64,000 bases of DNA from Martelella mediterranea DSM 17316 (GTDB lineage Bacteria > Pseudomonadota > Alphaproteobacteria > Rhizobiales > Rhizobiaceae): NCBI RefSeq assembly GCF_002043005.1, contig NZ_CP020332.1:1-64000 (forward strand), given 5' to 3'. Made by a program: the position numbers and the translations under genes. The notes beneath the pieces are model-generated. The model did no database searches. It saw only the letters and a program-made list of their open reading frames with translations, and had not been told where the DNA came from. Shown here in pieces: positions 27,038 to 47,308 of this stretch. How positions within the stretch are numbered: the stretch's first letter is position 1; each line of letters opens with the position of its first letter.

Positions 27038-27040
27038 TCC

Positions 27041-29378: not shown

Positions 29379-29396
29379 CCCCTTGCGGGGAAATCG

Positions 29397-29420: not shown

Positions 29421-29453
29421 GATATTGTGGAGAAAACCTCAGTCGATCACTAC

Positions 29454-29821: not shown

Positions 29822-29855
29822 GCCCAGTTATTGGGCGCGCATAGTTTTAATGCGC
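29822..29855. promoter_or_regulatory. Tandem inverted repeats upstream of the WYL regulator
   Basis: Two adjacent symmetrical sites: GCCCA-GTTAT-TGGGC (29822-29836) and GCGCAT-AGTTTTA-ATGCGC (29837-29855). They sit immediately before the ribosome-binding site of the WYL gene, where an autorepressor would bind. Confidence 0.5.
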
Positions 29856-29879
29856 ACGGGTATGCTTGGGGGGGAAGTC

Positions 29880-30740
29880 GTGTCCAACGACAAGTCGGAT
29901 CTACGCTGGGGAGTCGAGCAACGTCTCGAGTTCATAGAGTTCCGCCTGTTCTGGGAGGGGCACGTGAACCGCATTGATCTGATGGATCAATTCGGGGTTT
30001 CGGTGAACCAGGCCTCTATGGATCTGAACCGCTATATCGGCTTCGCACCAGACAACATGGTCTACGACAAAAGCGCTCGGACCTACGTGCGCGGGCCAGG
30101 GTTCAAGCCACAGTTTCTAGAGCCTGACGCAAGCCGGTATCTGGCCCAGCTGCGGTCTGTCGCTGACGGTATCCTCGATAGAGAAGACTCCTGGATAGCC
30201 GACTTGCCGCCCTACGCAGCCTCGCCCACGCCCGTGCGAGGCGTCGACCCTGTCACGCTCCGGTCAGTGGTCGGGGCTATCCGGCGTTCGGAGGCGATCG
30301 AGGTCAAATATCAGTCCTTGTCGAACCCTGAGCCACGTTGGCGCTGGATTGCGCCCCATGCCATCGCTTTTGATGGCTTCAGGTGGCATGCGCGCGCCTA
30401 TTGTCTCTCCGACGAAGTCTTCAAGGGTTTCCTGCTCTCTCGGATGATCGAAATTCGCGGGTGCACTGAGAGCGCCGCGGTGCCTTCGGCGGACGCGGAT
30501 TGGAATGATGACGTGGTCCTCGAGATAGGTCCGCATCCTGATCTTTCCCCGACGCAGGCAAAGGTCATTGCGCTCGACTACGGCATGGATGGTGGAAAGG
30601 CGGCGATCAAGGTCAGGCGCGCCCTTCTCTATTACGCATTGCGACGGCTTGGACTGGATACCGATCCAAGCGCGCGACCGCCCAAAGATCAGCAAATTGT
30701 GCTTCTTAACCGTGAGACACTGGAGGCGACAGCGCCATGA
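29880..30740 (+). CDS. WYL-domain transcriptional regulator, BrxR/CapW type
   Basis: A 286-residue regulator. The N-terminal winged helix (RWGVEQRLEFIEFRLFWEGH, NRIDLMDQFGVSVNQASMDL) is followed by a WYL domain (RSEAIEVKYQSLSNPEPRWR, IAPHAIAFDGFRWHARAYC) and a C-terminal WCX region. This layout matches BrxR/CapW proteins, which repress phage-defence operons and respond to nucleic-acid or nucleotide signals. I used the GTG at 29880, preceded by GGGGGGGAAG. ATGs at 29850 and 29862 would place the start inside the putative operator and add non-conserved residues. It directly precedes the helicase-methylase operon and probably controls it. Confidence 0.85.
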   Translation: MSNDKSDLRWGVEQRLEFIEFRLFWEGHVNRIDLMDQFGVSVNQASMDLNRYIGFAPDNMVYDKSARTYVRGPGFKPQFLEPDASRYLAQLRSVADGILDREDSWIADLPPYAASPTPVRGVDPVTLRSVVGAIRRSEAIEVKYQSLSNPEPRWRWIAPHAIAFDGFRWHARAYCLSDEVFKGFLLSRMIEIRGCTESAAVPSADADWNDDVVLEIGPHPDLSPTQAKVIALDYGMDGGKAAIKVRRALLYYALRRLGLDTDPSARPPKDQQIVLLNRETLEATAP

Positions 30741-30812
30741 GAAAATGGTTCTCTCGTCTGCTGTCGAACACTTACGGCTCGCCAGGTTTGGATTGAAAAG
30801 AGTGCGTCTCAA

Positions 30813-33764
30813 ATGAGTTCAGCAATCCCCACCCCCGGGTCCGTCATCAGCCTCCGCTCCGCCACATGGAAGGTGCTGGGCACCTCGACGCTGAAGCGCG
30901 GCTTCCGGGAGGTCCACTGTCGGGGCCTGAACGGTCTGGTTCGCGACAAGGAGGCCCGGTTTGTCTGGGACCTCGAGAAGGACGCGCGCGTCCTTGACCC
31001 GGCGGCGGTCAGGCTCGTCCCGGACACGTCCCCCGGTCTGATCGATACGAAGCTTCACCTCGCGGCCGCATTTCGGGCAACACCGACAACAACCCGCCGC
31101 CCGCTTACGCTTGGTCGGGCCGCGATCGACGATCTGACTTTCCAGCATCTGCCAGTGGAGCGGGCACTGGCGCAAGACCGAGTTCGGCTCCTGATCGCGG
31201 ATGATGTCGGCCTCGGGAAGACCCTTGAAGCGGGCCTGATCACCTCAGAGCTCGCTCTGCGCGGCCGGGCGGACCGAATCCTTGTGGTCACGACACGAGC
31301 CATGCTGACCCAGTTTCAGAAGGAGTTCTGGACCCGGTTCTCGATTCCGCTTTCCCGGCTCGACAGCGCCGCAATCCGGAGGATGCGGAACAAGATCCCG
31401 GCTCATTACAACGTGTTCGACCAGTTCGACCGGTCCATCGTCTCGATCGACACCCTGAAACGGGACAACCAGATCCGGGACGCGCTGAAACATTCCTACT
31501 GGGACCTCATCATCATCGACGAGGCGCATAATACCGCCGAACGGAAGTCGGTCGCCGGGTCGAACTCGCAGCGGGCGGAGCTGGCGCAGCTCCTGTCTCG
31601 CCGCACCGACTCCCTGCTCCTGCTGACCGCGACCCCGCATGATGGATCGCAGGAAAGCTTCGCCAGTCTTATCAAGATGCTCGACCCAACCCGGGTTCCG
31701 GATCCGACCCGGCTGCACCGGTCTGACATCGAGGATCTTGTCATCCGCCGGTTCCGCTCGTCGCCGGAGGTGGTCGCCGATATCGGCCGAGAGGTCCCGA
31801 AACGGCAGCTGTTCCCGCGCCGCTTCCCGCTCAGCCCTCAGGAAGAGGTGGCCTATCAGGCGATCGCGGACCTGCACCTCGATCTTGATGAAGAGCAGAC
31901 CCGGGGACGCGCGATCGACCTGTTCCGGACCACGATCGCCAAGGCGATTTTTTCCAGTCCGGCCGCCTGTCGCGAGACACTAGAGCGGCGGATCCGGGGG
32001 ATCGAAAACGGGACAGCCCGCGGCACCCCGGCTGACCGGGACCGGTTGCGGGCGCTGGCGGACAACGTGGCAGCGATCGATACGGGCGCGTTCAGCAAGT
32101 ACCAGGAGCTCCTGCGCCTGCTGCGTCAGTTGAACTGGACCGGGCGCGCCGCCCGGGACCGGCTCGTCATCTTCTCGGAACGGATCGCGACCGTGTCCTG
32201 GCTCGCCGACCGGCTGCGCGAGGACTTAGACTTGTCGGCCGAACAGGTAGCGCGGGTGGATGGGGGGAGCGTCGAGGCTGACGTTCGGACCCAGGAAGTG
32301 ATTGAGGCGTTCGGCCAGGAGCGGTCGCCGATCCGGATCCTGATCGCCTCTGACATGGCGTCCGAGGGGCTGAACCTCCATTTCCAGTGCCACCGGCTGA
32401 TCCATTTCGACCTCCCCTGGTCCCTTCTGCGGTTCCAGCAGCGCAACGGGCGGATCGACCGGTACGGGCAGGACAGACCCCCGCAGATCAGCTATTTCGT
32501 CGGTGAGAGCACGCATCCGAAGGTGCGGCAGATGTGGGTTCTCGAGAAGCTGGTCGCGAAGGACGAGGCGGCTCAGGCCGGCGTCGGGGACCCGGCCGTG
32601 TTCCTCGGCGCGGGGGACGCGGATGGGGAGGAGGCGGTCGTCGCGGAGGCGGTCGCCACCGGCATCGGTGCGGAGGCGTTTGAGCGCCAGATGGACGCCC
32701 GGGCCGCGGAGGCCGTCACCCACATGTTGGTCGACGATGAGTTCGCGGCCCTCTTCGGGGATTATGCGGCCCCGGCTCCAGCCGACGCGGCGCCCCCGAC
32801 GGATCAGGCCCCGCCGCGCCTCTATTCGGATACGTTCAGCTACGCCCGGGCGATGATTGAGCGGCTCTCCCGATCGGAGGGGCGCATCTTCCCGGAGCAG
32901 CCCGGGATATTCCCGGATGACCGGGTCATCCGGCTCTCGATCCCGGACGACATGCGGGCGCGTGACGGTTTCGGTTACGCGAGCGAGGGAGCGGTGGATA
33001 GCCGGTTCATGCCGGAGGAAGCCGTCGGCCCTGGGGGCCGGGTCGAGCTGACCGACCAACCCGGGGTGATCAACCAGGCGATCAACGACGCGAAGGCGCA
33101 GGAGCGGGCTTGGCCGACCGTTCAATTCCTGTGGGACGGGCACCCGATCCTGCACTGGTTCGCAGACCAGGCCAGCACCTTCTTCCCGGAGCACGCCGCC
33201 CCGGTAGCGTCGCTACAGGGACGCATGCCCGCGGGGGAGGTGGCCGTGGTCCTTCACGGGGCGATCCCGAACGCGAACGGGGCCCCGGTCGTGGACCGGT
33301 GGGCCGTGGTGATCCGGTCGGCGGACGGGACCGTTTGGATCGAGGAGGTGGGCACATTTCTGGAACGGACCCGGCTCGCCGGGGACACTCCGAGCCGCTC
33401 ACTGGAGGACCTCTCGGCGGCGCAGGCAGCGATCCCGGTTGCGGTGGACCGGTTCCAGACGCACCTGGTCGATCTCCGGAAGGCGCGAGAAGCGGACATC
33501 CAGCGCGCCCTCGACGCGGTTCTTGAGCGGCTGTCCGCCCTGGAGACGCGGTTCCGAGCCCAGCTTACGCTTGATCTCGGCGACTTGCCCGGTACCGATG
33601 AGGGGCTCAGCCCGTTTGAGAAGAGACGCCTGACGATCCGCCGCAAGCGGGAACAGGAGATCGAGAAGCTGTTCCATGACTGGACAGACTGGTTCGAGCG
33701 GACCCGGAAGATGATTCCGGACCCGAACCCGCATGTTGACGTCAAAGCTGTGTTTGTGGGGTGA
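30813..33764 (+). CDS. SNF2-type helicase, DrmD-like
   Basis: A 983-residue superfamily 2 ATPase. LLIADDVGLGKTLEAGLITS gives Walker A near residue 130, LIIIDEAHN Walker B near 235, and LLLLTATPHDGSQESFASLI motif III. The helicase C half shows LVIFSERIATVSWLADRLRE, ILIASDMASEGLNLHFQCHR and LRFQQRNGRIDRYGQ. This is the RapA/HepA-like branch used by DISARM DrmD. The C-terminal ~330 residues are a less conserved domain with a coiled region at the end. It is the first structural gene of the operon, 4 bases before the methyltransferase. Arg codons are strongly biased to CGG, unlike the CGC-rich plasmid backbone. Confidence 0.88.
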   Translation: MSSAIPTPGSVISLRSATWKVLGTSTLKRGFREVHCRGLNGLVRDKEARFVWDLEKDARVLDPAAVRLVPDTSPGLIDTKLHLAAAFRATPTTTRRPLTLGRAAIDDLTFQHLPVERALAQDRVRLLIADDVGLGKTLEAGLITSELALRGRADRILVVTTRAMLTQFQKEFWTRFSIPLSRLDSAAIRRMRNKIPAHYNVFDQFDRSIVSIDTLKRDNQIRDALKHSYWDLIIIDEAHNTAERKSVAGSNSQRAELAQLLSRRTDSLLLLTATPHDGSQESFASLIKMLDPTRVPDPTRLHRSDIEDLVIRRFRSSPEVVADIGREVPKRQLFPRRFPLSPQEEVAYQAIADLHLDLDEEQTRGRAIDLFRTTIAKAIFSSPAACRETLERRIRGIENGTARGTPADRDRLRALADNVAAIDTGAFSKYQELLRLLRQLNWTGRAARDRLVIFSERIATVSWLADRLREDLDLSAEQVARVDGGSVEADVRTQEVIEAFGQERSPIRILIASDMASEGLNLHFQCHRLIHFDLPWSLLRFQQRNGRIDRYGQDRPPQISYFVGESTHPKVRQMWVLEKLVAKDEAAQAGVGDPAVFLGAGDADGEEAVVAEAVATGIGAEAFERQMDARAAEAVTHMLVDDEFAALFGDYAAPAPADAAPPTDQAPPRLYSDTFSYARAMIERLSRSEGRIFPEQPGIFPDDRVIRLSIPDDMRARDGFGYASEGAVDSRFMPEEAVGPGGRVELTDQPGVINQAINDAKAQERAWPTVQFLWDGHPILHWFADQASTFFPEHAAPVASLQGRMPAGEVAVVLHGAIPNANGAPVVDRWAVVIRSADGTVWIEEVGTFLERTRLAGDTPSRSLEDLSAAQAAIPVAVDRFQTHLVDLRKAREADIQRALDAVLERLSALETRFRAQLTLDLGDLPGTDEGLSPFEKRRLTIRRKREQEIEKLFHDWTDWFERTRKMIPDPNPHVDVKAVFVG

Positions 33765-33768
33765 TCGA

Positions 33769-36700
33769 ATGGACCTGATCGGGATCGAAAACGAAGCTGA
33801 GTTCTTCCCATCCGGGACCCTTTCGGACGTGCTGAAGGAGGAGCTTCAGGACATCACCGCACGCTGGGCCGGTCTGGACCGGGCCGCCCATCCGGTGGAA
33901 CGGCTGGCCCGCGTCGCCGGCCCGACCATCGAGGCGCTCCGCCAGGTCCGTAACAGTTCAGACCGGTCCCGGCGCGCCGAGCTGGTCCGGGACGCGCATC
34001 ACGAGGTGCTTACTGCTCTCGGCTACATGTGGCGGCGCGAGGGAGCCTTCGCCGCCCTTGACGGGGCACCGGTGATCCCCCTTGTGTCGCGCGCCGCGGA
34101 TTCCAGCGGTCGTGACGCGCTCTGGGTGATCGAGGCGCCCATCCCGGCCCCGGAGGATGAAGCCTCGGACCCACTCGGTGCCTGCTTCACCGAAGATCAA
34201 TTACCGCCGGACCAGCGCGAGGCGGCACTGACCGACCGGACCATCGAGTCCGTTCTTGCCGAAGGGGTGTTCGAGCTGTCCGACGGCCCGCGTCACGTTC
34301 TCGTCCTCGGCCTCTCGCAGATCGTGCTGATCGACAAGCGAAAATGGCCGGCCCGGTCTGTCCTCCGCTTCGACCTCCAGGAGATCTTCGCCCGGGCGGA
34401 CCGTGACACGCTGACCGTGATGGCCTGCCTGATCTCTCGCGAGGCGCGCGTCCCGGATCAGGGGGCGCCGATCTCGGATCGGCTCGAAGAGGAGGCGCAG
34501 CGGAACGCGAACGCTGTCACCACCTCCCTGAAACGGACTGTGCGGGACGCAATCGAGCTGCTCGGCCAGGAGGTGATCGCGGTTACCGGCGGGAAGTACC
34601 CGTCCACCTTCCGGGACCAGGGGAGACGCGGGGTCTGGATCGACGGCCCGGATCTGTCGCGCGAGTGCCTGCGCTACATGTACCGGCTCCTCTTCCTGTT
34701 CTACGCCGAGGCGAACCCGCGCCTGAACCTTTTGGACATGCGCAACCCCATCTACGCGACCGGGTATTCGCTGGAGGCGCTGCGTGAACTGGAATCTGTC
34801 CCGCTCCGGACCACGGCGGACCGGGAGGGGACTTTCCTCTGGGAAAGCCTCCAGAGGACCCTCGACCTTCTCTACACCGGCCTCGACCTCGCCGATGAAG
34901 AACGCGGCACTGGCCTTCGCCTGCCGGCCGTCAAAGTGTCCCTGCTCGACCCGGAGAGCACCCCACTCCTGAACGGGCTGCAGCTGCGGAACGAGGCGGT
35001 TCAACAGGTGATCCGCCTGCTGTCGCTCCGGTCCACTGGCAAGAGTACTGGCCGAATTTCTTACGCCAAGCTTGGCATCGGACAGCTGGGCGCAGTCTAT
35101 GAGACCCTGATTTCGTTCACCGGAGTGGTCGCCAAGACCGATCTCATCGAACTCAAACCCCGCAAGGGCCGGTCGAATGACGCGGCCGAGGACGTGGAGG
35201 AGGCGGAAGCGCCCGAGCCGGAAGAGGACGACGAGGAGGACCTGTTCGGCGAAGATGAGGCTGACCAGGAGGACGCCTTCCGCCGTGACAAGGTGGACAA
35301 GCTGGCGCCTAGTTGGTTCGTCCCCCGCAGCCGGATCAACGAATTTGCCACGGATGAGATCGTCTTCAACGGGTCCGAAGCGCTCGTCTACGAAAAGGGG
35401 ACCTTCATCTACCGCCTCGCCGGCCGGGACCGGGAAAAGTCCGCGTCCTATTACACACCCGAACCCCTAGCCCGACTTTTGGTCAAGCACGCGCTGATGG
35501 AGCGGTGCCGGGACCTGACTGCTGATCAGCTTATGGACCTGAAGATCCTCGAGCCGGCGATGGGGTCCGCCGCTTTCCTCGTGGAGACCACGAACCAGCT
35601 GGCCGACCTCTACCTTGAGCGGAAACAGAAGGAGACGGGCCGGACCATCCCGCAGGAGGATATCGTCCTCGAGAAGCAGCGGGTCCGGGCCTATATCGCG
35701 GACCGGAACTGCTTCGGGGTAGACCTCAACCCGATCGCCGTCGAACTGGGGGCGATCTCGCTGTGGCTGAACAGCCTGCACGGGAGCGAGTTCTCGCCCT
35801 GGTTCGGGGACCAGCTTCATGCCGGGAACTCCCTGATCGGCGCGCGCAGGGCCGCCTATGCCCCCGCGCTTCTCAGCGCCAAGGCGCAGGGGGACCTGTG
35901 GTTCAACGGGAAACCCGAGGAGATCGGCTGGCGCAAACGCCTGCCGGACGGTCACGTCTGGCAGTGGCTCCTGCCCGCCAAGGACATGGCGAACTTCGAC
36001 AAGGACAAGTCGATCGCCCCTTTCGCGAAATCCGCACAAGACCAGATCAAGGCGTGGCGCAAGGACGGCTTCTTCAAGAAGCTCGAACCCCACGAAATCA
36101 AGCTGGTCCAGAAACTCAGCCGGGTCGCCGAGGCGTTGTTCGACCAGGTCGCCGAGGACCTCGCCAAGACGCGCGCCGCCGCGAATGACGAGATCACGCT
36201 CTGGCCTGACAAGGTGATCCCCGGCAACCGTCAGATGGACTTCCACCAGAAGGAACAACTGAACGCCCACCTGATCGGTGCGGATCACGCCACGAACACG
36301 CTCCCCTTCAAGCGGCTCAAGACCGCGATGGATGCGTGGTGCGCGCTTTGGCTGTGGCCGCTGGACAAGGCGCATCTGCTGCCCAACCGGCGGGAATTCA
36401 TGGAAGGCATGCGCCTGATCCTTGATGGCGGGTTCTCTGCCGACGGGTCGCTTGCGATGGAAAGCACCGCAGACATTCAGGACCCGTCCCCCGATTTCCT
36501 GGACATGTTAGAACCCGACGCACCTGCGCGCGATCTATTCAAGGCGGCGTCCAAGCGTCAGGACACCCTGTTCCGCGAAACCAATGTCGAGGCGCTGGTC
36601 GAGACCTTCGACTGGCTGGGCATCGCGGTCGAAGTGGCCGAGCGCGAGCGGTTCGTGCATTTCGACCTGATCTTTGCCGACGTGATGCGGGCGCGTGGCG

Positions 36701-38718
36701 GGTTCGACGTGATCGTCGGGAACCCTCCTTGGGCCAAACCCTCGTGGAACGAGGGGCTGGTGCTGGCGGATATCGATCCGCTTTATGCGGGTCTGTCGGC
36801 GTCAGACGCGAAGAAGGTTCTGGGCGAGGCGCTGCCAAAGGCCCCGCCCGTGCGGCGTGAGGGGCGGACGGTTCCGGCGGTCGAGGCCTTCCTTCAGGAC
36901 TTCGTGTCGACCCGGGGGGCGATGGAGGTGACCTCGTCCGAGGTGATGAACCCCTTCGCCGGGGGCGGGTCGAACAATCTCTATCGCTGTTTCATCGACC
37001 TGTCGTTCCGGCTGGTCGCGCCGCAGGGCTATGCGGCGCTGATCCATCAGGACGGGCATTTGGGAGATCCCAAGTCGGGGGCGTTCCGGCGGCACTGGTA
37101 TGCGCGGGCCGCGAAGCATTTCGAGTTCAGCAACCGGATGACGGCGCGCAATTTTGCTGAGGTCGACCATAACCGCAGGTTCAGCTTGAACGTCTATCGC
37201 GGCGAGGAACGTACACCAGATTTCGAAAAATTCACCTACGCCTTTACCGCTGCCCAAGTCGAAGATTCGTATGCAGATATGGACGGCATCGGGCCGGTCC
37301 CTAGTATCAAAAATCCCGAAGGGAATTGGGACACCCGTGGTCACCGTGACCGCCTGATGCGGATCGACCGGGATGCGCTGGCGGTGATCCATGCCCTCTC
37401 CGAGGAGGAAAGGGTACCGGTTGAAGAAGCCCGGTTCATTCAGCCCTATTCGGCCCGCACACTGGACGTGTTCCGCCAGATGGCGCGGTTTCCAAAACTG
37501 GACGCGGCGATCCCGAAGATCGAGCGCAGAGTCAGCACGGCAACAGGGGAGCGGACGGTCGAGGTGCCGCTGTGGCAGATGAACCGCCTCTGGGATGAAA
37601 CGAACGCCCAGAAAGACGGGACCATCCGGCGCGAAACGGCTTTCCGCGCGGCGGATCAGATGATCCTTCAAGGGCCGCTCTTTTATGTTGGAAACCCGCT
37701 TTACAAAACGCCCAAGGCGGTTTCGCGGACTAACGCGGATTACCTCGTCATCGACCTGGCCACCGCGCCAGACGACTACCTCCCGCGCACGAATTACGGT
37801 CCTGCACTGGAGATGACCGACTACCGGAACCGGATGACCCAGTGCCGCTGGGACCCGACGAAAGGCCACGCCGATTTCTATCGCGTGGCGTTTCGGAACA
37901 TGATTGCTCTAAACGGAGAGCGCAGCTTGATCGGTGCGATGATCCCGCCGGGCGCGGCGCACATACACAAGGTTGAAAGCATCGCTTGTGCGGACGTTTC
38001 AATTTCTCTCGCAATACACTCGTTCGCTTGTTCGATCCTGTTCGACTATTTGGTCAAGGCAAACGGACGCGGTGATCTTTTTGCCTCTGATATAGGCCGG
38101 TGGCCGTTCCCAGAACTGGAGGATACCGCCCGGCACCGCTCCCTGCGACTCGCCTGTATCACCTCGGCCTACGCCAACCTCTGGAACCGTCACGCCTCTA
38201 CGCTCGACGTCCTTCCATGGTCGTCCCCTGACCCCCGCCTCCACCTCGAAGGCCCGGTCGAAGGCCCGGCCACCTGGGACCGGACCGCAGGCCTCCGGAC
38301 GGAATTCGCCCGCCGCATGGCGCTGGTCGAAATCGACGTGCTGGTCGCCCAGGCGCTTGGCCTGACCCTCGACCAGTTGATCGAGATCTACCGGATCTAT
38401 TTCCCGGTCCTGCAAGAGAACGAGGCGGGCACCTGGTACGACCAGAACGGCCGGATCGTCTGGACCTGCTCCAAGGGCCTGCCCGGCGTTGGCTGGCTTG
38501 ACGACCGCGGCAAAAGCCCCGGCCGCGCTGCCTGGGAGAAGAAGCTGGAGGAAAACCCGCCGCATCTGACCTGCACCGCCATCGACGACACGATGCCCGG
38601 CGGCCCCCGCACCGTCACCCGCCACTTCGTCGGCCCCTTCACCCAGTGCGACCGGATCGAGGACTACCGCCGCGCCTGGGCCCATTTCGAGCGGCTGAAA
38701 TCCGAAGAGGCCGCCTGA
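33769..38718 (+). CDS. Large N6-adenine DNA methyltransferase (PglX/DrmMI/Eco57I-like)
   Basis: A 1649-residue protein. A long N-terminal region (about 1-470) precedes an extremely acidic linker (about 471-505, rich in Glu and Asp). The gamma-class methyltransferase follows: LKILEPAMGSAAFLVE (motif I, about 594) and FDVIVGNPPWAKPSW (catalytic NPPW, about 984). Target-recognition-like segments lie after that. Such proteins methylate adenine to mark self DNA in BREX and DISARM systems; some type IIG relatives also cut, but I see no obvious nuclease motif in the N-terminus. Base composition changes inside the gene: CGG-rich first third, CGC-rich middle and a more AT-rich stretch around 37.1-38.1 kb. 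The ATG follows the helicase stop by 4 bases. Confidence 0.88.
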   Translation: MDLIGIENEAEFFPSGTLSDVLKEELQDITARWAGLDRAAHPVERLARVAGPTIEALRQVRNSSDRSRRAELVRDAHHEVLTALGYMWRREGAFAALDGAPVIPLVSRAADSSGRDALWVIEAPIPAPEDEASDPLGACFTEDQLPPDQREAALTDRTIESVLAEGVFELSDGPRHVLVLGLSQIVLIDKRKWPARSVLRFDLQEIFARADRDTLTVMACLISREARVPDQGAPISDRLEEEAQRNANAVTTSLKRTVRDAIELLGQEVIAVTGGKYPSTFRDQGRRGVWIDGPDLSRECLRYMYRLLFLFYAEANPRLNLLDMRNPIYATGYSLEALRELESVPLRTTADREGTFLWESLQRTLDLLYTGLDLADEERGTGLRLPAVKVSLLDPESTPLLNGLQLRNEAVQQVIRLLSLRSTGKSTGRISYAKLGIGQLGAVYETLISFTGVVAKTDLIELKPRKGRSNDAAEDVEEAEAPEPEEDDEEDLFGEDEADQEDAFRRDKVDKLAPSWFVPRSRINEFATDEIVFNGSEALVYEKGTFIYRLAGRDREKSASYYTPEPLARLLVKHALMERCRDLTADQLMDLKILEPAMGSAAFLVETTNQLADLYLERKQKETGRTIPQEDIVLEKQRVRAYIADRNCFGVDLNPIAVELGAISLWLNSLHGSEFSPWFGDQLHAGNSLIGARRAAYAPALLSAKAQGDLWFNGKPEEIGWRKRLPDGHVWQWLLPAKDMANFDKDKSIAPFAKSAQDQIKAWRKDGFFKKLEPHEIKLVQKLSRVAEALFDQVAEDLAKTRAAANDEITLWPDKVIPGNRQMDFHQKEQLNAHLIGADHATNTLPFKRLKTAMDAWCALWLWPLDKAHLLPNRREFMEGMRLILDGGFSADGSLAMESTADIQDPSPDFLDMLEPDAPARDLFKAASKRQDTLFRETNVEALVETFDWLGIAVEVAERERFVHFDLIFADVMRARGGFDVIVGNPPWAKPSWNEGLVLADIDPLYAGLSASDAKKVLGEALPKAPPVRREGRTVPAVEAFLQDFVSTRGAMEVTSSEVMNPFAGGGSNNLYRCFIDLSFRLVAPQGYAALIHQDGHLGDPKSGAFRRHWYARAAKHFEFSNRMTARNFAEVDHNRRFSLNVYRGEERTPDFEKFTYAFTAAQVEDSYADMDGIGPVPSIKNPEGNWDTRGHRDRLMRIDRDALAVIHALSEEERVPVEEARFIQPYSARTLDVFRQMARFPKLDAAIPKIERRVSTATGERTVEVPLWQMNRLWDETNAQKDGTIRRETAFRAADQMILQGPLFYVGNPLYKTPKAVSRTNADYLVIDLATAPDDYLPRTNYGPALEMTDYRNRMTQCRWDPTKGHADFYRVAFRNMIALNGERSLIGAMIPPGAAHIHKVESIACADVSISLAIHSFACSILFDYLVKANGRGDLFASDIGRWPFPELEDTARHRSLRLACITSAYANLWNRHASTLDVLPWSSPDPRLHLEGPVEGPATWDRTAGLRTEFARRMALVEIDVLVAQALGLTLDQLIEIYRIYFPVLQENEAGTWYDQNGRIVWTCSKGLPGVGWLDDRGKSPGRAAWEKKLEENPPHLTCTAIDDTMPGGPRTVTRHFVGPFTQCDRIEDYRRAWAHFERLKSEEAA

Positions 38719-38719
38719 G

Positions 38720-41700
38720 ATGAACCCGATCCTCCTCGCCCGTCATGTGCAGGACAGCCTGCGCGAACTGGTCCATACGACACTGAACAGCACCAGCCCC
38801 GCCTTCGAGGGGATGGTGGACCGGTTCATCGCCGAGCCCGGGAACTTTCTGAAGGGGCCGTGGATCTCGGTCGACATGCCGTTCCGGCAGATTGACGGGG
38901 CGAAGGAGGGGACGTGGGCGCAGCCCTTCCCGGAGGTGCCACTGAAATTCGCGCCCTACCAGCACCAGACGGACGCCTTTGCCCGGCTGAGCGGGACGGC
39001 GATGCGCTCGACCCTGGTCGCGACCGGGACCGGGTCGGGGAAAACTGAATCCTACCTGTGGCCGATCCTGGACCACTGTCGGCGGAACAAGGGGAAGCCC
39101 GGGATCAAGGCGATCCTGATCTACCCGATGAACGCGCTGGCGACGGACCAGGCGCGCCGCATTGCGGATGCGCTGACCCGGATCCCGTCGCTGAACGGGG
39201 TGCGGGCCGGGATCTATGCGGACGCGGAGCCGCAGAACCCGGCGCATGAGGTGACCGAGGACAGCGTGATCACGCATCGCGAGACGATGCGGAAGAACCC
39301 GCCGGACATCCTGCTCACGAACTACAAGATGTTGGATTACCTGCTTCTACGCGGCCGGGACAAGCCGCTCTGGGCGCAGAACGACCCGGAAACGCTCCGG
39401 TTTCTGGTGGTCGACGAGATGCACACCTTCGACGGGGCGCAGGGGGCGGACCTGGCCCTGCTGCTGCGCCGCCTGAAGTACCGGCTGAACACCCCGGAAG
39501 GACACCTGATCTGCGTGGGGTCGTCGGCAACGCTTGGCTCCGGGGAAGAGGCGGCGACGGACTTGCGCCAATACGCCGAGACAATCTTCGGCGAGCCGTT
39601 CGACGCGGGCGCGGTGGTCCGGGAGACCCGGAAATCCCCCAACGAGGTGTTCGGCGACGCGGAGTATCTGGACCGGCCGGATCCCGCCGATATCCACGGC
39701 GCCTTGAGAGCGGCGACGGAAATGGACCAGCCGGGTGCCGCGCGACGGCTCGCTGTCTGTCTGTTCCCGGATCGGACCGACCCCGACCTCGCCTTTCTGG
39801 ACACAGGTGATCCAGCGGACCCGGCTTGGCGGATCGCACTCGGGGACCGGCTCGTCCAGCATCACCTGTGTCAGCGGACCCTGAAGATCATCGCCGAGCA
39901 CAAGGGACCCGCTTCGCTTGAGGCGATTGCGGCTGGGCTGGGACAAGTCCGGGTCCTTCGTGACTGGCCCGAGGCAGACCTGACTGCGCTCGCCGAGCTG
40001 GTCGTAGGGCTGGTCGCCTGGGCCCGGTCCGGGTCGGCTGAGAGCCCGCGCCCTCTATTCAACGTCAGGCTCCAGCTCTGGATCCGGGAGATGGCCCGGA
40101 TGGTGACAACCCTGCCGCGACTCGAGGCGGGCGGGGTCCGTTCACAGATCGACCTTTTCCATGAAATGGACCTGGAAAGGGACCAGCTTTGCCGGGCCCT
40201 TCCGGTCGTGAACTGCAACCGGTGCGGGGCGACCGCGCATCTCGGACGGCAGGACGCCCGGTCGAAGTCGCTACATGCGGACCTGGAGCAGCTCTACCAG
40301 GAGTTCTTCGACGAGAACGGGGCGGACCGGATCCGGCTCATCTATCACGAGTCGATCGACCGGATGGTCCCGGCCAGCGGCGCCGGTGGTCAGATCGTGA
40401 AGGGGGTCCTGAACGCGGAAACGGTCGAGTTCACCCCGGCCGATCACAAGGATCTCGGCCCGGGACCGGCCTCACAGGTCTGGTTGTACAACCCGACCGA
40501 CGCGAACGGACGGATCGACCGGACCTGCCCTGCCTGCGGGCAGGCGCGCGGGCTTCTCCTCTTCGGGATGCGGGCGGCGCGTTTGACGACCGGGATCACC
40601 GGTACCCTTTACACCTCCGAACAGAACGAAGAGAGCCCCGAGGCAAAACCGCGCTTCCTGATGTTCTCGGATTCGGTTCAGGACGCGGCGCACCGGGCGG
40701 CGGTGGCCGAAACCCGGAACGCACTGTCGGTCTACCAGAAGGCACTCTACGGGGCGCTTCGGTCTGCGGAAACGGGCGCGATGAGCCTGAAAGAGGTGAT
40801 CGAGGACGTCCCGCGCGCCCAGTTGAACGACCTCGGCCCGGACGGGTTCACAGCGCTGTTCATCCCGAAGGAGTTGACCTGGCGGCGGCGCTACCGGGAG
40901 CTGGTCGAAAGCGGGGCCACCATCACCGACCCGGTGTTTCTCGACCATATCCGGATCCGGCTCGGCTGGGAGTATTTCGTCGACCTGAGCTACAGGGCGC
41001 ATTTCAACCACACGCTTGAATTGAACGGCATGGCGGCGGCGGATGTGCCCACGGATCTGCTGCGCCTGTCCGCGGAGCGGCTGGCACGGGAGCTGCGAAA
41101 CGATCTGCCGGGCGCGCCGGAGTTCGACCCGGCCCTTCTGACCCGGCTCCTCGCCGGGGTGACGCAGCGGATGCGGCGGCAGGGGTCCGTGGCGCACCCC
41201 TATCTCGAGAGCGCGATCGCGAACGGGAAAGGGAACTACGGGCTGAACTGGTACGCGGCCGCCATCCAGGTGGGCGTGGGGAAGACCGGTTCCCTGCCAA
41301 GCCCGGACAGCCGGCGGGGCCTCGCGCCGATCCCGGTGACCCTCGGCGCCGCCCCGACCGGGTTTGAGAAGATCACCCGGACCGGCCCCGCGAGCTGGTA
41401 CCGGGACTGGCTGTTCCGGCTGATCGGACCGTCCGACCTGCGCTACGGCGCGGACCCTGACGCGATCTATCCGCTCCTCCTGCGCCGACTTGAGGCCGAC
41501 GACATCGTCCGACGCGTGAACGGGCCCGAGGGGCAGAACCGGCATGCCTGGCTTCTCGTGCCGGAACGGGTCACCGTCTCCACCGCGACGATCGGGCTGT
41601 GCTGCGACTTGTGCGGTCGGCGCGAGACCGGGCTTTCGGAAAACGCAGGTGTCCTGATCGGCTCCCCCTGTACGCGGATCGGTTGTGACGGGCACCTAGC

Positions 41701-44700
41701 AGCGGTTGAGCAGGCTGACCGGCCCGCCCTGCGCCGCGCCCTTCGCTCGGACCGAAACCACCGGGTGGTGGCGCGAGAACATACCGGCATCCTCGAAACG
41801 GATGAGCGGCTGCGGATCGAGACCGGGTTCATCAAGAGCGAAACCCGCTGGGCCCCGAACCTGATCTCGGCCACTCCGACCCTGGAGATGGGGATCGATA
41901 TCGGGGACCTGTCCACCCTGCTTCTGAGCTCGGTCCCCCCGGAGGAGGCGAATTACGTCCAGCGGATGGGGCGGAGCGGGCGGCGCGACGGGAACGCGCT
42001 GAACATTGTGCTGGCGAATGCGCGTGCCCATGACCTCCAGTTCTGGGAAGACCCAACCCCGATGCTGGCAGGCCAGGTCCGGCCGCCGGGCGTGTTCCTC
42101 GCGGCCGAAGAGGTGCTGCTTCGTCAGGTGACCGCCTATACCCTCGACGCCTATGTCGCGGCCACGAAGGAGAGCGGGGATTACGGGAAGGTCCGGGACG
42201 TGCTGAAACGCCGGGCCTCCGGCGCGACCGAAGGGTTCCCGGTTGAGTGGCTTGAACTGGTTCGCGAAACCGGGCCGGAACTGGCAGACCGGTTCCTGTC
42301 TGGCCTGCCGCAAGAGGTGCAGGACCGGACGGATCTGGCCGACCGGATCCGATCTTACCTGACCGGAACGGACCCGAAATCGATCGGCTGGCGCGTCGGG
42401 GAGGCCTTCGACGGGGCTGCCACCGAACGGGCCCGGCTGGTGGAAAAGCGCGAGGAAGCGACCAAGGAACTTGGTCGGCTCAAGAAGCGCCGGGCCGAGC
42501 TGACCGATGAAGAATATGAGCGTCGTGAACAGGACCTGACCCGGGACCGGACCGAGATCAACCGTCTGATCCGAAGCGGGATCGACGATGTGCCGGTGAT
42601 CAAGTTTCTGACCGACAAGGGAATCTTGCCGAACTACGCCTTCCCCGAAGAAGGGGTGAAGCTGACGTCGATCCTGTCGCGGCGCAACGATGGCGCGACA
42701 GCACGGGACGAGGACGGGCTTCTGCACGTCGAATACTCCCGGCCCGCCAGCTCCGCCCTGTCGGAATTCGCGCCGGGCCAGTTCTTCTACGCCAACGGGC
42801 GCCAGGTGCAGATCGACCGGATCGAGATCGGCAAGGAAGATTTGGCCCGCTGGACCTTTTGCCCAGCCTGTTCGCATGTCGCGCACCGGATTGAGGGCGC
42901 CGAGACCCGCACCTGCCCGCAATGCGGGGACGAGATGTGGTCGGATAGCGGCTCCGCGCATGACGTGGTCCAGCTCAAGTCTGTCATCGCGATCGACAGC
43001 GAGGAAAAGGCGGCGATCCGGGACGGGGATCAGCGGGACCAGCGTCAGTTCGACCGGGTTCTCATGCCCTTCCATGGACCGGAAGACATCGTCGCCTCCT
43101 GGTTCACCAGCCGGGAGAACGGTGCCCCGTTCGGGTTTGAATTCCTGCCCAGTTGCACGTTCCGCGACTTCAACTTCGGGACGAAGTCCACCCTCCCCGG
43201 GCCGCGGATCGCGGGCGAGCGTCGGCCCGCACAGCCGTTCCGGATCTGTCGCCACTGCGGGTCGCTTCAGGGTCCCCCACGCGGCGAGGACGATCGCGGA
43301 ACGCACCCGCCGAACTGTCTTGTCATGCGGGATGAGGACCTGCTTCGCGAGCAGTGGGAAACCGGCGTGTTCCTGATGCGAAAGTTCGACACGGAGGCGA
43401 TCCGGATCGTGATCCCGGTGGTCGGGGACGCGGATGATGATGACCTGAAAAGCTTCGTCGCGGCGATCAACCTCGGGATGCGGCGTCACTTCGCGGGGAA
43501 GGTCGACCATATCCGGTCCACCATCTTCCAGGCGCAGCTGAACGGAATGACCACGGTTCGCAGCCTTTACCTCTACGATTCCGTGCCGGGCGGATCAGGC
43601 TATCTGCGTCAGATCGCGGAACATCCGAACACGATGCGCGAGGTTGTCAGCCGCGCGGCGGAGGCGCTCCGGGACTGCCCCTGCAACCAGGAGCCGGACC
43701 GGAACGGGTGCTTCCAATGTGTGAAGCCCTACCGGTCACAGTTCGGGCCCGGCGAGCCAGATCGGGACCGGGCGCGGCAGATGATGGAGGCGATCCTCGA
43801 GAAATGGGACAGCCTGACCCAGACCGAGACCGGGATCGACGCGTCAATTCGGGGCGCGCTGGTCGAGAGCGTGCTGGAGAAGCGGTTGCTGCGCGCCCTT
43901 TCCGGCTTCTATGGAGACGGGGCGCTGACGCCGCAGGTGCTGCCGGGTGGACGGCGTGGGTTCGTCCTGCGCGCGGGTCGGCCGGACGCGCCGCGCCTCT
44001 GGACGATCGAGCCGCAGGTGCAGATTGACGCGCGGTTCCGGGGCCTGCCCCGCAAGCGTGTCGACTTCCTGCTCACCCCGGTTGGCCGCAGCAGCGGCCT
44101 GCCGATCGTCATCGAAATGGACGGGATCGAGTATCACGCGGGTACGGTCGCCCAGGACCTGTTGGACCGGATGTTGATGATCCGGTCCGGGCAGGTGCGG
44201 GTCTGGACCCTGTCCTGGCGCGATCTTGACCCAGAGGACAAGGGCTACCTGAACCCGCTCTCTGAAACCGCCCTCGGGGCGCAGATGACCGGGCCCCTTG
44301 GGCGTGCGCTGGCGCATCCGCTGCTCGCCCCACATGCAGAGGCGGTCCGGACGCTTCAGACCATCAGCACGCTCGATGCACTGAGGCGCCTTCTGGACGG
44401 GGATGCGGACGGGGATGCGGTGATCCGGTCCGTCCTGATCCGGGGCCTCGTGAAGGGCGGTCGCCCCATCGACCAGCTTCCCCGGCAGGCGGCCCTTTCA
44501 GAGGCGGGGCGCCTGTTTCTCTCCGGTACACAGGCTGTGGAACAGGTCGGGGTCGGGGCGCTCGATCTCTATCTGGCCTGTGAGAAGATCTCGCCCACCG
44601 AATGGGCCCAATCGGATCGCGACCTTCGTTTTCTCCTGCGTTCGGTCCTGCCCGATCCGGGCGAGGTTCCGGCCGCGAAAACCCTCTACACGGAGGCCTG

Positions 44701-45121
44701 GCGCGGGCTCTGGCGGATCGTGAACCTGTTCCAGGGCGTGCGTGGTCTTCATGTCGAGTTCGACGGGCTGGACTCGTTGGCCCCACCCGACATGGTGGAA
44801 CCCGTCGACCAGGGGGACCAGGGCCCCGGCTTGGCCGCTTGGGAAGAGGCGCGGGCGCTGTGCGACGACGCGTTCCACCCGTTGATTGACGCGTTGATCG
44901 CGGCCGAGGCGCCCGGGCCGGACCACTTCGGGGACGATCTGGTTGCGGGCGGACGCGTGGTGGGCGCTATGGAATTCGGATGGTCGGATACCCGCGTCGC
45001 GGTTGCCGAAACATCCCTTGTGGGGGTCGGCTGGGCGCTGATCCCGTTTGATCCGGAAACCGATCAGATCGGGGAGACGGTCTCGCGAATTATCACGGCC
45101 CTTCAGGAGGCACGGACATGA
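38720..45121 (+). CDS. Giant DEAD/DEAH helicase with DUF1998 and a putative Vsr/DUF559-like nuclease domain
   Basis: A 2133-residue protein. LVATGTGSGKTESYLWPIL is Walker A (about residue 100) and FLVVDEMHTFDGAQGADLAL Walker B (about 230). Helicase C follows with LISATPTLEMGIDIGDLSTL and NYVQRMGRSGRRDGNALNI. A DUF1998 domain ends in the Cys cluster C1653, C1655, C1664, C1667 (CPCNQEPDRNGCFQC). After that, about residues 1690-1835, RKRVDFLLTP and PIVIEMDGIEYHAG with a later RVWTLSWRDL resemble a Vsr/DUF559 PD-(D/E)XK nuclease (D1782, E1799). It looks like DISARM DrmA and DrmB joined with a nuclease; DruE of Druantia is another large DUF1998 helicase to compare. It starts one base after the methyltransferase stop. 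Confidence 0.85.
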   Translation: MNPILLARHVQDSLRELVHTTLNSTSPAFEGMVDRFIAEPGNFLKGPWISVDMPFRQIDGAKEGTWAQPFPEVPLKFAPYQHQTDAFARLSGTAMRSTLVATGTGSGKTESYLWPILDHCRRNKGKPGIKAILIYPMNALATDQARRIADALTRIPSLNGVRAGIYADAEPQNPAHEVTEDSVITHRETMRKNPPDILLTNYKMLDYLLLRGRDKPLWAQNDPETLRFLVVDEMHTFDGAQGADLALLLRRLKYRLNTPEGHLICVGSSATLGSGEEAATDLRQYAETIFGEPFDAGAVVRETRKSPNEVFGDAEYLDRPDPADIHGALRAATEMDQPGAARRLAVCLFPDRTDPDLAFLDTGDPADPAWRIALGDRLVQHHLCQRTLKIIAEHKGPASLEAIAAGLGQVRVLRDWPEADLTALAELVVGLVAWARSGSAESPRPLFNVRLQLWIREMARMVTTLPRLEAGGVRSQIDLFHEMDLERDQLCRALPVVNCNRCGATAHLGRQDARSKSLHADLEQLYQEFFDENGADRIRLIYHESIDRMVPASGAGGQIVKGVLNAETVEFTPADHKDLGPGPASQVWLYNPTDANGRIDRTCPACGQARGLLLFGMRAARLTTGITGTLYTSEQNEESPEAKPRFLMFSDSVQDAAHRAAVAETRNALSVYQKALYGALRSAETGAMSLKEVIEDVPRAQLNDLGPDGFTALFIPKELTWRRRYRELVESGATITDPVFLDHIRIRLGWEYFVDLSYRAHFNHTLELNGMAAADVPTDLLRLSAERLARELRNDLPGAPEFDPALLTRLLAGVTQRMRRQGSVAHPYLESAIANGKGNYGLNWYAAAIQVGVGKTGSLPSPDSRRGLAPIPVTLGAAPTGFEKITRTGPASWYRDWLFRLIGPSDLRYGADPDAIYPLLLRRLEADDIVRRVNGPEGQNRHAWLLVPERVTVSTATIGLCCDLCGRRETGLSENAGVLIGSPCTRIGCDGHLAAVEQADRPALRRALRSDRNHRVVAREHTGILETDERLRIETGFIKSETRWAPNLISATPTLEMGIDIGDLSTLLLSSVPPEEANYVQRMGRSGRRDGNALNIVLANARAHDLQFWEDPTPMLAGQVRPPGVFLAAEEVLLRQVTAYTLDAYVAATKESGDYGKVRDVLKRRASGATEGFPVEWLELVRETGPELADRFLSGLPQEVQDRTDLADRIRSYLTGTDPKSIGWRVGEAFDGAATERARLVEKREEATKELGRLKKRRAELTDEEYERREQDLTRDRTEINRLIRSGIDDVPVIKFLTDKGILPNYAFPEEGVKLTSILSRRNDGATARDEDGLLHVEYSRPASSALSEFAPGQFFYANGRQVQIDRIEIGKEDLARWTFCPACSHVAHRIEGAETRTCPQCGDEMWSDSGSAHDVVQLKSVIAIDSEEKAAIRDGDQRDQRQFDRVLMPFHGPEDIVASWFTSRENGAPFGFEFLPSCTFRDFNFGTKSTLPGPRIAGERRPAQPFRICRHCGSLQGPPRGEDDRGTHPPNCLVMRDEDLLREQWETGVFLMRKFDTEAIRIVIPVVGDADDDDLKSFVAAINLGMRRHFAGKVDHIRSTIFQAQLNGMTTVRSLYLYDSVPGGSGYLRQIAEHPNTMREVVSRAAEALRDCPCNQEPDRNGCFQCVKPYRSQFGPGEPDRDRARQMMEAILEKWDSLTQTETGIDASIRGALVESVLEKRLLRALSGFYGDGALTPQVLPGGRRGFVLRAGRPDAPRLWTIEPQVQIDARFRGLPRKRVDFLLTPVGRSSGLPIVIEMDGIEYHAGTVAQDLLDRMLMIRSGQVRVWTLSWRDLDPEDKGYLNPLSETALGAQMTGPLGRALAHPLLAPHAEAVRTLQTISTLDALRRLLDGDADGDAVIRSVLIRGLVKGGRPIDQLPRQAALSEAGRLFLSGTQAVEQVGVGALDLYLACEKISPTEWAQSDRDLRFLLRSVLPDPGEVPAAKTLYTEAWRGLWRIVNLFQGVRGLHVEFDGLDSLAPPDMVEPVDQGDQGPGLAAWEEARALCDDAFHPLIDALIAAEAPGPDHFGDDLVAGGRVVGAMEFGWSDTRVAVAETSLVGVGWALIPFDPETDQIGETVSRIITALQEART

Positions 45122-47289
45122 CAGACACAATGACCAAGCGGGTCTCCTACGACATCGGCTGCATGAAGAGCCTGCGGAAACTGCCGGACCGGGTTGCGCT
45201 CCGGTTCATGGACCTGATGACCAAGTATATGTCGGACCCGTCCGCGAATGGGCTGAACCTGGAAACGGTGGAAGGATCGAGGGACAGCTCGATCAAGTCC
45301 ATGCGGGTCGACCAGGGGTATCGGGCCATCGCCTTCGAGGTCGGCCGCGACATCATGTTCGTGCATGTCAACGAGCACGACAAGGCCTACCGCTGGGCGG
45401 CAGGGCGCCGGGTCAAGCTCGACCCGGAAACGAACCGGATCCGGGTGATTGAGGAGGTGGACGCGGTTGTCGAACCGGTGGCGACGCCGGATACCTACGC
45501 TCCTCGCCTCTTCGACGAGGTGACGGATGCAAGGCTGCGCGCCCTCGGCGTGCCGGAGGAGGAGCTGACGGCCGTTCGTCAGATCCCCACGATCGAGGCG
45601 CTGGAAGGCGCGGAGGACCGGTTCGATCCGCTCACCTATCAGATCCTTTACGCGGTCGCGGCCGGTTATGCGGATGAGGAAATCCAGTCCCTGACCGGGG
45701 TCGGCGCGGAACCGGACGCGGAACCGCAGCAGCCCGCCGCGGAGCTGACCTTCGGAAAGCTGATCGAGACCGAGCAGAGCCGCCAGACCATCTTCATTCC
45801 CGAAAGCGAGGAGGAGCTGCGCCGCGTTTTCGAGGAGGGGCTTGAGGGCTGGCGCGTGTTCCTGCACCCCGAACAGCGCAAGATCGCCTACCGGGACTAC
45901 AACGGGCCGGTTCTGGTCCGGGGCGGGGCTGGTACCGGCAAGACTGTCGTCGCGATGCACCGGGCCAAGCACCTTGCAGACCAGATCAAAAACGATCCGA
46001 CCCGATCCGGCCAGCGGGTCCTTCTGACCACCTTCACGACCAGCCTCGCGCATGACATCGAGGCGAACCTCCGGACCCTGTGCCCTGACCATCTGGACGC
46101 CCGCCCGCCCCGGATCGAGGTGATCAACCTCGACCGCTGGGTCTCTCAGTTCCTCAAGCGCAAGAGCTTCGCCCGCGAGGTCGCCTTCTTCGGCGAGGCG
46201 CGGGACCGGCTGGACCAGGTGTGGAAGGAGGTCTTCGATGATCACGAGCTGCCCGAGGGGCTGTCTGAGCCGTTCGTTCGCGCGGAATGGGCGCAGATCG
46301 TCCAGGCGAAGGGGCTGACCGATCAGAAGGGATACCTGAAGGCGTCCCGGGCCGGCCGGGGCACCCCTCTCGACCGCAAGAAGCGGGCGGTGCTGTGGGA
46401 CATCTTCGCCGATTACCGGGCCCGGCTGATCAGCGAAGGGCTCGCGGAGCCTGACGACGCTTACCGCGAGGCGACCGAGATCCTGACCTCCGAAGCGCCG
46501 AACCTGCCCTACAGCGCGGTCATCGTCGATGAGGCGCAGGACATGGGCGAACAGGCGTTCCGGCTGATCCGCGCGATCATGCCCGAGACCCCGGCGGGGG
46601 ACCGGAACTCCCTCTTCATCGTGGGCGACGCGCATCAGCGGATCTATGGGCGGCGGGCCGCCATGTCCGCCTGCGGGATCAACGTGCGCGGCCGCTCGAA
46701 GCGCCTCCGCCTGAACTACCGGACCACGCAGGAGATCCGGGCCTGGGCGGTCTCGGTTCTCGAGGGGGTCAGCGTTGACGATCTTGATGAAGGGACGGAT
46801 ACCCTACGCGGTTATGTCAGCCTCATGCGCGGGGCCGCCCCCGAGCTGGTCGGGTGCCGGACAGAGGCGGAGGAGCTGGACGGGCTGGTGGCCTGGGTCC
46901 GGGCCCTGCCGCCCGACCAGATCCGCCTCTCCGACATCGGGGTCCTGTGCGCGCGTCGCGCCGACGCGGACCGGGTTCAGGCGGCGCTCCGCGCGGCCGG
47001 TATCGAGACGGTGATGCTCCAGTCCGGTGCGGACGACCGGTCCGTTCCGGGGATTCGGATCACCACGATGCACCGGGCGAAGGGGCTCGAGTTCTTCGCC
47101 GTGGCGATCCCCTTCCTGTCCGAGGCGGCCTTCCCGCCACCGGGTGCGCTCCGGGCCGCCGTGGATCCGGCAGATAAGGAGGACATTATCATGCAGTACC
47201 GGTCCCTCCTGCATGTCGCTGCGACCCGGGCGAAAAAAGCTCTCCGCATTTCATGGTCGGGGACGCCAACTGGCATTTTCACGGTCTGA
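45118..47289 (+). CDS. UvrD/Rep-like helicase with N-terminal RelE/ParE-like domain
   Basis: A 723-residue protein. Residues ~8-100 resemble a RelE/ParE fold: MKSLRKLPDRVALRFMDLM, GLNLETVEGSRDSSIKSMR, QGYRAIAFEVG and HVNEHDKAYRWAAGRRV. After a linker comes a superfamily 1 helicase with VLVRGGAGTGKTVVAMHRAK (about 265-280), VIVDEAQDMGEQAF (about 468), FIVGDAHQRIYG, LRLNYRTTQEIRAW and ITTMHRAKGLEFFAVA, ending LLHVAATRAKKAL. It overlaps the giant helicase gene by 4 bases, so it belongs to the operon. In classic DISARM this position is held by DrmC, a phospholipase-D protein; none is seen here. An ATG at 45130 is an alternative start. Confidence 0.87.
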   Translation: MTDTMTKRVSYDIGCMKSLRKLPDRVALRFMDLMTKYMSDPSANGLNLETVEGSRDSSIKSMRVDQGYRAIAFEVGRDIMFVHVNEHDKAYRWAAGRRVKLDPETNRIRVIEEVDAVVEPVATPDTYAPRLFDEVTDARLRALGVPEEELTAVRQIPTIEALEGAEDRFDPLTYQILYAVAAGYADEEIQSLTGVGAEPDAEPQQPAAELTFGKLIETEQSRQTIFIPESEEELRRVFEEGLEGWRVFLHPEQRKIAYRDYNGPVLVRGGAGTGKTVVAMHRAKHLADQIKNDPTRSGQRVLLTTFTTSLAHDIEANLRTLCPDHLDARPPRIEVINLDRWVSQFLKRKSFAREVAFFGEARDRLDQVWKEVFDDHELPEGLSEPFVRAEWAQIVQAKGLTDQKGYLKASRAGRGTPLDRKKRAVLWDIFADYRARLISEGLAEPDDAYREATEILTSEAPNLPYSAVIVDEAQDMGEQAFRLIRAIMPETPAGDRNSLFIVGDAHQRIYGRRAAMSACGINVRGRSKRLRLNYRTTQEIRAWAVSVLEGVSVDDLDEGTDTLRGYVSLMRGAAPELVGCRTEAEELDGLVAWVRALPPDQIRLSDIGVLCARRADADRVQAALRAAGIETVMLQSGADDRSVPGIRITTMHRAKGLEFFAVAIPFLSEAAFPPPGALRAAVDPADKEDIIMQYRSLLHVAATRAKKALRISWSGTPTGIFTV

Positions 47290-47308
47290 TGATTGTAGCG
47301 GTTTTATC

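Follow-up and report, generated by a model that had tools for sequence, protein, structure and literature searches.

In a stretch of 64,000 nucleotides (the window; positions 1 to 64,000 of contig NZ_CP020332.1, which is 258,597 bp long and one of four contigs in the 5.69-Mb genome of Martelella mediterranea DSM 17316), we identified what is very probably an ARMADA Type II anti-phage operon behind a CapW-type regulator, acting along the lines proposed below. Its four core genes lie on one strand in the order BrxHII helicase, PglX-like methyltransferase, YprA helicase and RelE/GajB-like helicase, which is the ARMADA II order. The same gene set and order were named ARMADA Type II (armABCD) in September 2025 (Escherichia coli NCTC 12900 and ATCC 8739; Bell et al., 2025; PMC12458937). 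According to the main text of that preprint, an E. coli homologue has anti-phage activity, requires all four genes and leaves cells intact.

The residues that the preprint's main text reports as mutated are all conserved in the window's proteins (8/8). Relative to an E. coli plasmid operon (L077), used as the reference for protein identities, ArmA is 39.3% identical (K136 and D236 conserved), ArmB 39.7% (the G of the S-adenosylmethionine (SAM) motif, residue 611 of the open reading frame (ORF), and the N of NPPW, residue 997), ArmC 34.8% over its length (equivalents of K110 and D234) and ArmD 40.3% (equivalents of K266 and D454). Gene order, these catalytic residues, the RelE domain and the DUF1998 fusion together identify the operon, at the level of sequence, as a member of ARMADA II.

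A sequence-only reading of the same DNA had described a DISARM-related operon of new gene composition, possibly a separate restriction-like defence class. The separate class was correct, as ARMADA II, and the operon is indeed related to DISARM yet is neither DISARM nor BREX. The novelty claim fails because ARMADA II has been published with the same gene set and order, an outcome that the sequence-only reading had itself set as refuting it. A new, unnamed DISARM-like class would be in keeping with the incomplete matches to DISARM, Druantia and BREX models, including an NCBIfam DrmD score for ArmA (352.6) below the cut-off of 610, but the prior publication of these four genes in this arrangement and the conservation of every mutated residue make it extremely improbable, and it was rejected. 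The claim of a new class is thus corrected, and ARMADA II is extended to alphaproteobacterial operons that are carried on plasmids and preceded by a CapW-type regulator.

Gene parts and relation to other defence systems

Five ORFs, all on the plus strand, occupy the positions given in the sequence-only reading (Table 1), and all core arm genes are open. The regulator is separated from armA by 72 bp, armA from armB by 4 bp and armB from armC by 1 bp, and armC and armD share an ATGA overlap, so that the tight packing first noticed is borne out. The longest ORF of armB (33733-38718) encodes 1661 residues; the annotated start of its counterpart on plasmid pOT1-7 of Haematobacter massiliensis (L078) corresponds to 33769 and agrees with the 1649 residues proposed earlier. 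For the WYL gene, the annotation of the pOT1-7 counterpart begins where the window has the GTG at 29880.

The best PADLOC model for ArmA is DrmD, and its PLD_Helicase match is confined to the helicase part. ArmB matches type IIG and DrmMI models (DrmMI, 205 bits); phmmer of ArmB against the PDB returned no match. ArmC is best matched by DruE (325.8 bits), with DrmA at just 47.5 bits, and among solved structures its closest sequence match is 9tu7, a DEAD/DEAH helicase of 2108 residues (8.3e-46). It also carries an MZB/DUF1998 module fused to the YprA helicase (PF09369, 42.6 bits versus a cut-off of 24.2). The earlier suggestion that DrmA and DrmB are fused therefore holds for domains, both functions residing in one protein, and not for descent, because ArmC is nearer DruE than DrmA. 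For the ArmC tail, Foldseek gave no good match and profile searches against the PDB yielded nothing useful.

The best PADLOC model for ArmD is NERD+UvrD (104.2 bits), followed by GajB types (GajB, 84.8 bits). Its AlphaFold2 model (predicted local distance difference test, 84.8) matches RelE 2khe by Foldseek (E 2.5e-5; template modeling scores 0.58/0.74), and a profile of the N-terminal domain matches the archaeal RelE 1wmi (E 0.0019). Pfam gave no RelE match in the window's own ArmD; ParE_like was weakly matched by 17 of 37 aligned ArmD N-terminal domains. A RelE fold is thus predicted for this domain. Together with the UvrD match (PF00580) and the position of armD beside armC in other genomes (see below), this agrees with the earlier view that a RelE-UvrD protein belongs to the system.

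PADLOC was run on the five operon proteins and eight flanking proteins, the best 25 families being listed for four of the operon proteins; the negatives that follow refer to these families. As first noted, DrmC, PglZ, BrxC and the partner genes of Zorya and Druantia were not among them. The PADLOC matches suggest a DrmD-like helicase and a DrmMI-like methyltransferase as in class 1 DISARM (DrmD, DrmMI, DrmA, DrmB, DrmC), with the NCBIfam DrmD score below its cut-off, but the operon has the YprA helicase and DUF1998 in one protein instead of separate DrmA and DrmB, and a RelE-UvrD gene with no listed DrmC (PLD-family nuclease). BrxHII-like and PglX-like proteins recall BREX, from which the absence of PglZ and BrxC among the listed families separates it. 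The helicase part of ArmD resembles Gabija GajB and other UvrD helicases; unlike in Gabija, no GajA was found among the scanned window proteins, and ArmD has the N-terminal RelE-like domain.

The likeness to Druantia lies in ArmC, a DruE-like YprA helicase. The operon could be a Druantia variant in which ArmC is DruE and the other genes are incidental, as the DruE scores and the match to 9tu7 might indicate. However, DruA-D and DruH were not listed, a methyltransferase and an SNF2 helicase are present, ArmC aligns over its length with E. coli ArmC, and the four arm genes travel jointly across phyla. A Druantia variant is accordingly very improbable and was rejected in favor of ARMADA II. Within ARMADA II, the window's operon is like the published one in its four genes, their order and domains, the RelE-UvrD fusion and the mutated residues. 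It differs in protein identity (35-40% to the E. coli plasmid operon), in the CapW-type WYL regulator that precedes it, and in lying on a plasmid-like contig, the preprint's operon being on a tRNA-integrated element.

Table 1. Coordinates of the operon and its parts in the window (aa, amino acids).
Feature	Position	Strand	Details
WYL regulator, CapW/BrxR type, optional accessory	29850..30740	+	296 aa; WYL PF13280; phmmer vs PDB
ArmA, BrxHII/RapA-like SNF2 helicase	30813..33764	+	983 aa; SNF2/Helicase_C; PADLOC DrmD 335.5 bits, BrxHII 210.3
ArmB, PglX/type IIG-like N6-adenine methyltransferase	33769..38718	+	1649 aa; Eco57I PF07669, N6_Mtase PF02384
ArmB hypervariable block, probable target recognition domain	37093..38292	+	ORF residues 1121-1520
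armB-armC junction, putative cargo slot, empty in the window	38718..38720	+	1-bp gap
ArmC, YprA/DruE-like helicase, DUF1998 (MZB), C-terminal nuclease-like domains	38720..45121	+	2133 aa; DEAD + Helicase_C + MZB
MZB/DUF1998 zinc-binding domain of ArmC	43463..43723	+	PF09369, residues 1582-1668
PD-(D/E)xK, Vsr-like nuclease domain of ArmC, probable	43865..44236	+	Nuclease motif
Second nuclease-fold-like domain, ArmC C-terminus, weak	44813..45118	+	
ArmD, RelE-like domain + UvrD/GajB-like helicase	45118..47289	+	723 aa; UvrD PF00580 78.4 bits
Predicted RelE-superfamily domain of ArmD	45139..45453	+	AlphaFold2 model + Foldseek; profile search

Occurrence of the operon and the armB-armC junction

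A scan of 84,980 species genomes yielded 573 confirmed relatives, of which the best 74 distinct loci (L003-L076) were compared; two pairs, L021 with L024 and L009 with L017, each come from one genome. Twenty-three loci are alphaproteobacterial (53-98% best-segment identity), and one more (L028) is at 41%. The other 50, with ArmC identities of 30-36%, belong to gamma-, beta- and deltaproteobacteria, Campylobacterales, Clostridia and other groups. The co-occurrence check suggested earlier favors a single system: armD adjoins armC in 60 of the 62 loci that extend 2 kb or more downstream, and armB is upstream of armC in 43/46 loci with at least 9.7 kb upstream, lying further upstream in the other three. 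The armA gene was found in 39 of these 46; in several misses the available DNA stops soon upstream of armB. Two ARMADA-like loci, L034 and L038, encode ArmC with no ArmD found in 9.5-9.9 kb downstream, and L038 has GajAB between armB and armC. In Bradyrhizobium centrolobii (L019:2166-5111) a probable frameshift or stop divides armA into ORFs of 260 and 719 residues.

A close armC is carried by 518 of 5,426 complete E. coli genomes. At E ≤ 1e-100, ArmC was found in 2 of 385 genomes of the window's class, its own included, and in a search of 61 related genomes the sole match was the window's own; this patchiness suggests horizontal spread.

We interpret the armB-armC junction, unlike the other two junctions, as a fixed slot for exchangeable defence genes on the basis of gap lengths and gene content. 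Of the 74 loci, 55 include both genes, and 27 of these have a gap of more than 300 bp (over all 55, the median gap is 174 bp and the longest 5,146 bp), with inserts of 844-5146 bp in 26 loci and 700 bp in one. Gaps above 300 bp occur in 1/44 loci between armA and armB (L060, 590 bp) and in 0/62 between armC and armD (Fisher p 5.9e-8 and 1.6e-11, respectively, with kinship ignored). In the 19 remaining loci the available DNA is without armB. Three of these were extended, and armB then appeared upstream at distances of about 10, 12.5 and 16 kb from armC; counting them would give 30/58. Two of the three long stretches (L081, L082) also contain minus-strand ORFs, so the operon there may be broken rather than loaded. 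Insert ORFs are otherwise mostly co-directional with the operon; L055 and L073 lack a clear co-directional ORF of at least 100 residues.

The inserts might instead reflect random gene gain in a loose operon. Gene gain is common on plasmids and in defence islands, the 74 best-scoring loci are not a random draw, and the minus-strand ORFs of L081 and L082 fit an operon that is simply broken. Such gain would have to spare the other two junctions, and it sits poorly with cargo that is mostly co-directional, with the seamless alphaproteobacterial joints, with the repeated changes of slot state described below and with the finding that 14/27 filled loci, counted by locus, match a family already known as defence, toxin or Schlafen-like. 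We therefore regard random gain as improbable and a fixed slot as the better description.

In the window the slot is empty. A second concern, that the operon is functionally incomplete through loss of a slot gene, draws on pOT1-7, where ArmC is 99.5% identical and a 282-residue IrrE-like gene occupies the slot. However, 28/55 loci have no more than 300 bp at this junction, every core gene is open in the window, and in E. coli, where defence was demonstrated, 514 of the 518 genomes with the operon have an unbroken joint, matched at a single position over 80% or more of a 1-kb query that spans it. Loss of a needed gene is thus very unlikely, and we take the window to carry a complete operon with an empty slot. 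The empty E. coli slot may also be the reason why a four-gene description arose: the main text of PMC12458937 has a strict four-gene order with no armB-armC cargo. A description of the slot was found neither there nor in the open-licence PubMed Central papers searched.

For slot content, 31 insert ORFs from the 55-locus set and L078 were scanned (30 with Pfam, 20 with PADLOC), as were ten ORFs of the extended loci with PADLOC alone. Known systems include Gabija (GajA and GajB; L032, L038), GmrSD matching HEC-06/Orf5 models (L041; L050 has an unscanned ORF of the same size and place), PifA (L042, 706 bits) and Tiamat TmtA (L054, 736.5 bits). Combinations are seen in L040 (AbiEii, a weak AbiEi-like gene and a ResIII helicase), L051 (RloB and an AbiLi-like ATPase), L060 (a PDC-M38A/AbiLi-like ATPase and a DUF3226 protein) and L045 (HNH and HipA). 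Other loci hold a protein kinase (L047), DUF4209/PDC-S39 (L043), DprA-like (L044), FtsK-like (L048) and DUF3800 (L067) proteins or a ResIII helicase (L027). In six loci (L030, L032, L042, L043, L044 and L048) the gene immediately upstream of armC encodes an SLFN_AlbA_2 plus HATPase_c_4 protein; where other cargo is present, it lies on the armB side of this gene.

The usual alphaproteobacterial insert encodes 282 residues (L005, L009, L010, L017, L022, L078 and L079; 285 in L023). The copies in L078, L010 and L023 were checked for an HExxH motif and have it; the protein is IrrE/M78-like, although below the Pfam cut-off (20.8 versus 22, for the L078 copy, the only one scanned).

The extended loci hold two GmrSD-like proteins (L081), Ppl (L082) and, in L083, a full-length DrmD-like helicase (766 bits), PDC-M16A (1,563.5 bits), PDC-M16B and a protein weakly matching the HNH stretch of Cas9 models. 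The last locus, from Stenotrophomonas panacihumi (L072; L083:5604-16516), with a slot of about 11-12 kb, resembles a defence island inside a defence operon. Three inserts have no confident family: an unrelated 315-residue protein (L014:9039-9986), one with just a weak type IV restriction match (L064:7692-8708, 33.9 bits) and L073:8728-10000. They are candidates for new immune genes and, if the slot is confirmed, examples of why it would be a place to seek such genes.

Variable block of ArmB, exchange and proposed mechanism

Twenty alphaproteobacterial ArmB proteins, including those of the window and three plasmid copies, were compared by mean pairwise identity per 40-residue window. Identity falls to 0.31-0.57 across residues 1121-1520 (400 residues), is 0.82-0.88 in the last 140 (1521-1661) and is mostly 0.66-0.99 before the block, with a second short dip to 0.51 at 481-520. 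ArmA, ArmC and ArmD average 0.81-0.83, with lowest windows of 0.67, 0.60 and 0.62, respectively. In enzymes of the PglX and type IIG kinds, exchange of the target recognition domain shows as a variable block in a conserved methyltransferase. Because the ArmB block resembles this, it is probably a target recognition domain. A cargo slot and a swappable recognition domain are two points not found in the main text of PMC12458937.

Slot cargo turns over fast: in a FastTree phylogeny built from 60 ArmC rows (E. coli ArmC included, outgroup clades not; incomplete L023, L024 and L076 left out), the empty or filled state changes at least 16 times and the cargo type at least 28 times. Long branches make deep forks unsure, but the differences between close pairs are clear: L039 is empty versus GmrSD in L041/L050, L029/L031 are empty versus a helicase in L027, L042 has PifA versus DUF4209 in L043, and the window is empty versus filled L078. 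Joints are seamless in the alphaproteobacterial pairs, where armB runs into the 282-residue gene through an ATGA overlap, and no terminal repeats were seen by eye at joints of empty versus filled slots.

The record nearest the window in the plasmid collection is pOT1-7, which is typed conjugative. The two differ at 46 of 601 bases at the armB end, at 10 bases in 38,776-38,941 and at just 22 in 38,942-48,949, and differences are dense again after about 49,069. Because differences are few in this interval and dense on either side, we read about 10 kb, comprising most of armC, armD and a Fic gene, as recently shared with pOT1-7. The left edge of the block is 0.2-1.1 kb inside armC, beside the slot. 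As a single event, the exchange fits homologous recombination and is no proof of it. Haematobacter massiliensis OT1 has two ARMADA II operons on two plasmids (L078, L079), both with the 282-residue gene; their ArmB proteins are 92.9% and 76.3% identical, respectively, to the window's.

We propose, with even chances in our estimate, that ARMADA II is a modular chassis with a slot between a self-marking armAB and an attacking armCD. Homologous recombination through the conserved 3' end of armB and 5' end of armC would exchange back-up genes, and the ArmB recognition domain would be swapped too, renewing the target and the second line with the core unchanged. If so, the two states of the slot are seen side by side in nature, empty in the window and filled in pOT1-7.

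In the proposed mechanism, ArmB, aided by ArmA, would mark the cell's own DNA through N6-adenine methylation, with the variable block determining the site. ArmC, as a strand-separating helicase with a nuclease tail, and the ArmD helicase would attack unmarked phage DNA on entry or during replication. The RelE-like part of ArmD may provide back-up cutting of RNA (mRNA or tRNA) when DNA attack fails, CapW would keep the operon repressed until infection, and slot genes would probably be second lines of defence. One result weighs against a simple self-marking role: according to the main text of PMC12458937, a SAM-motif mutant lost defence partially. The back-up role of slot genes has precedent, because PMC12839542 reports similar kinds (GmrSD, OLD-TOPRIM/Gabija-like and Schlafen-HATPase-wHTH) as auxiliary effectors embedded in BREX and related systems. 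The cargo of ARMADA II differs from these in sitting at a single fixed junction. If confirmed, the slot would be a clean setting for asking whether genes inserted into a defence system serve as its back-up, a role that has been proposed in BREX.

Regulator and plasmid surroundings

The WYL protein is of the CapW/BrxR type, as first proposed: phmmer against the PDB gave CapW 9c5g (1.5e-65), 7tb6 (1.1e-64) and 7tb5 (6.1e-56) and BrxR 7t8k (1.1e-43). A relative is present in 6/12 close relatives in which roughly 1 kb or more of sequence precedes armA, a count that leaves out L005, L014, L022 and L024 (less upstream room), and in three plasmid loci (L078-L080). Because a relative was found in half of these loci, the regulator is not the fixed part of the set that it had been taken for; it is a common but optional switch. 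The WYL gene was rejected as a core part on this count, unrelated regulators elsewhere not having been looked for. Further WYL relatives lie near ARMADA operons in Pseudomonas (L039:19656-20528, minus strand, downstream on the opposite strand) and Chromobacterium piscinae (L047:1-909, plus strand, upstream). A repeat search near the regulator found no direct repeats and two short inverted repeats, outside the operon.

The operon is probably cargo on a conjugative-type plasmid, whose host, judged from pOT1-7 and the flanking genes, would be a member of the Rhodobacterales. Its flanks (28280-29714 and 47309-51394) mark a plasmid-level hot spot between DUF2493/WGR genes and the ParA/MobC side. 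This spot holds ARMADA II in the window and pOT1-7, genes annotated as type I restriction-modification plus FitB in pLA6_006 (L084), and a restriction endonuclease with SIR2 and ATP-binding genes in Tabrizicola piscis (L085). Directly after armD, within the 10-kb block common to pOT1-7, a Fic protein (47309-48409, minus strand) resembles the defence protein SoFic (138.5 bits). At 22661-29714, a Strawberry-notch family protein (1458 residues; weak MAD2-like match, 27.6 bits) adjoins a toprim-DUF2493-WGR block, and a query with this block matches 59 plasmid records.

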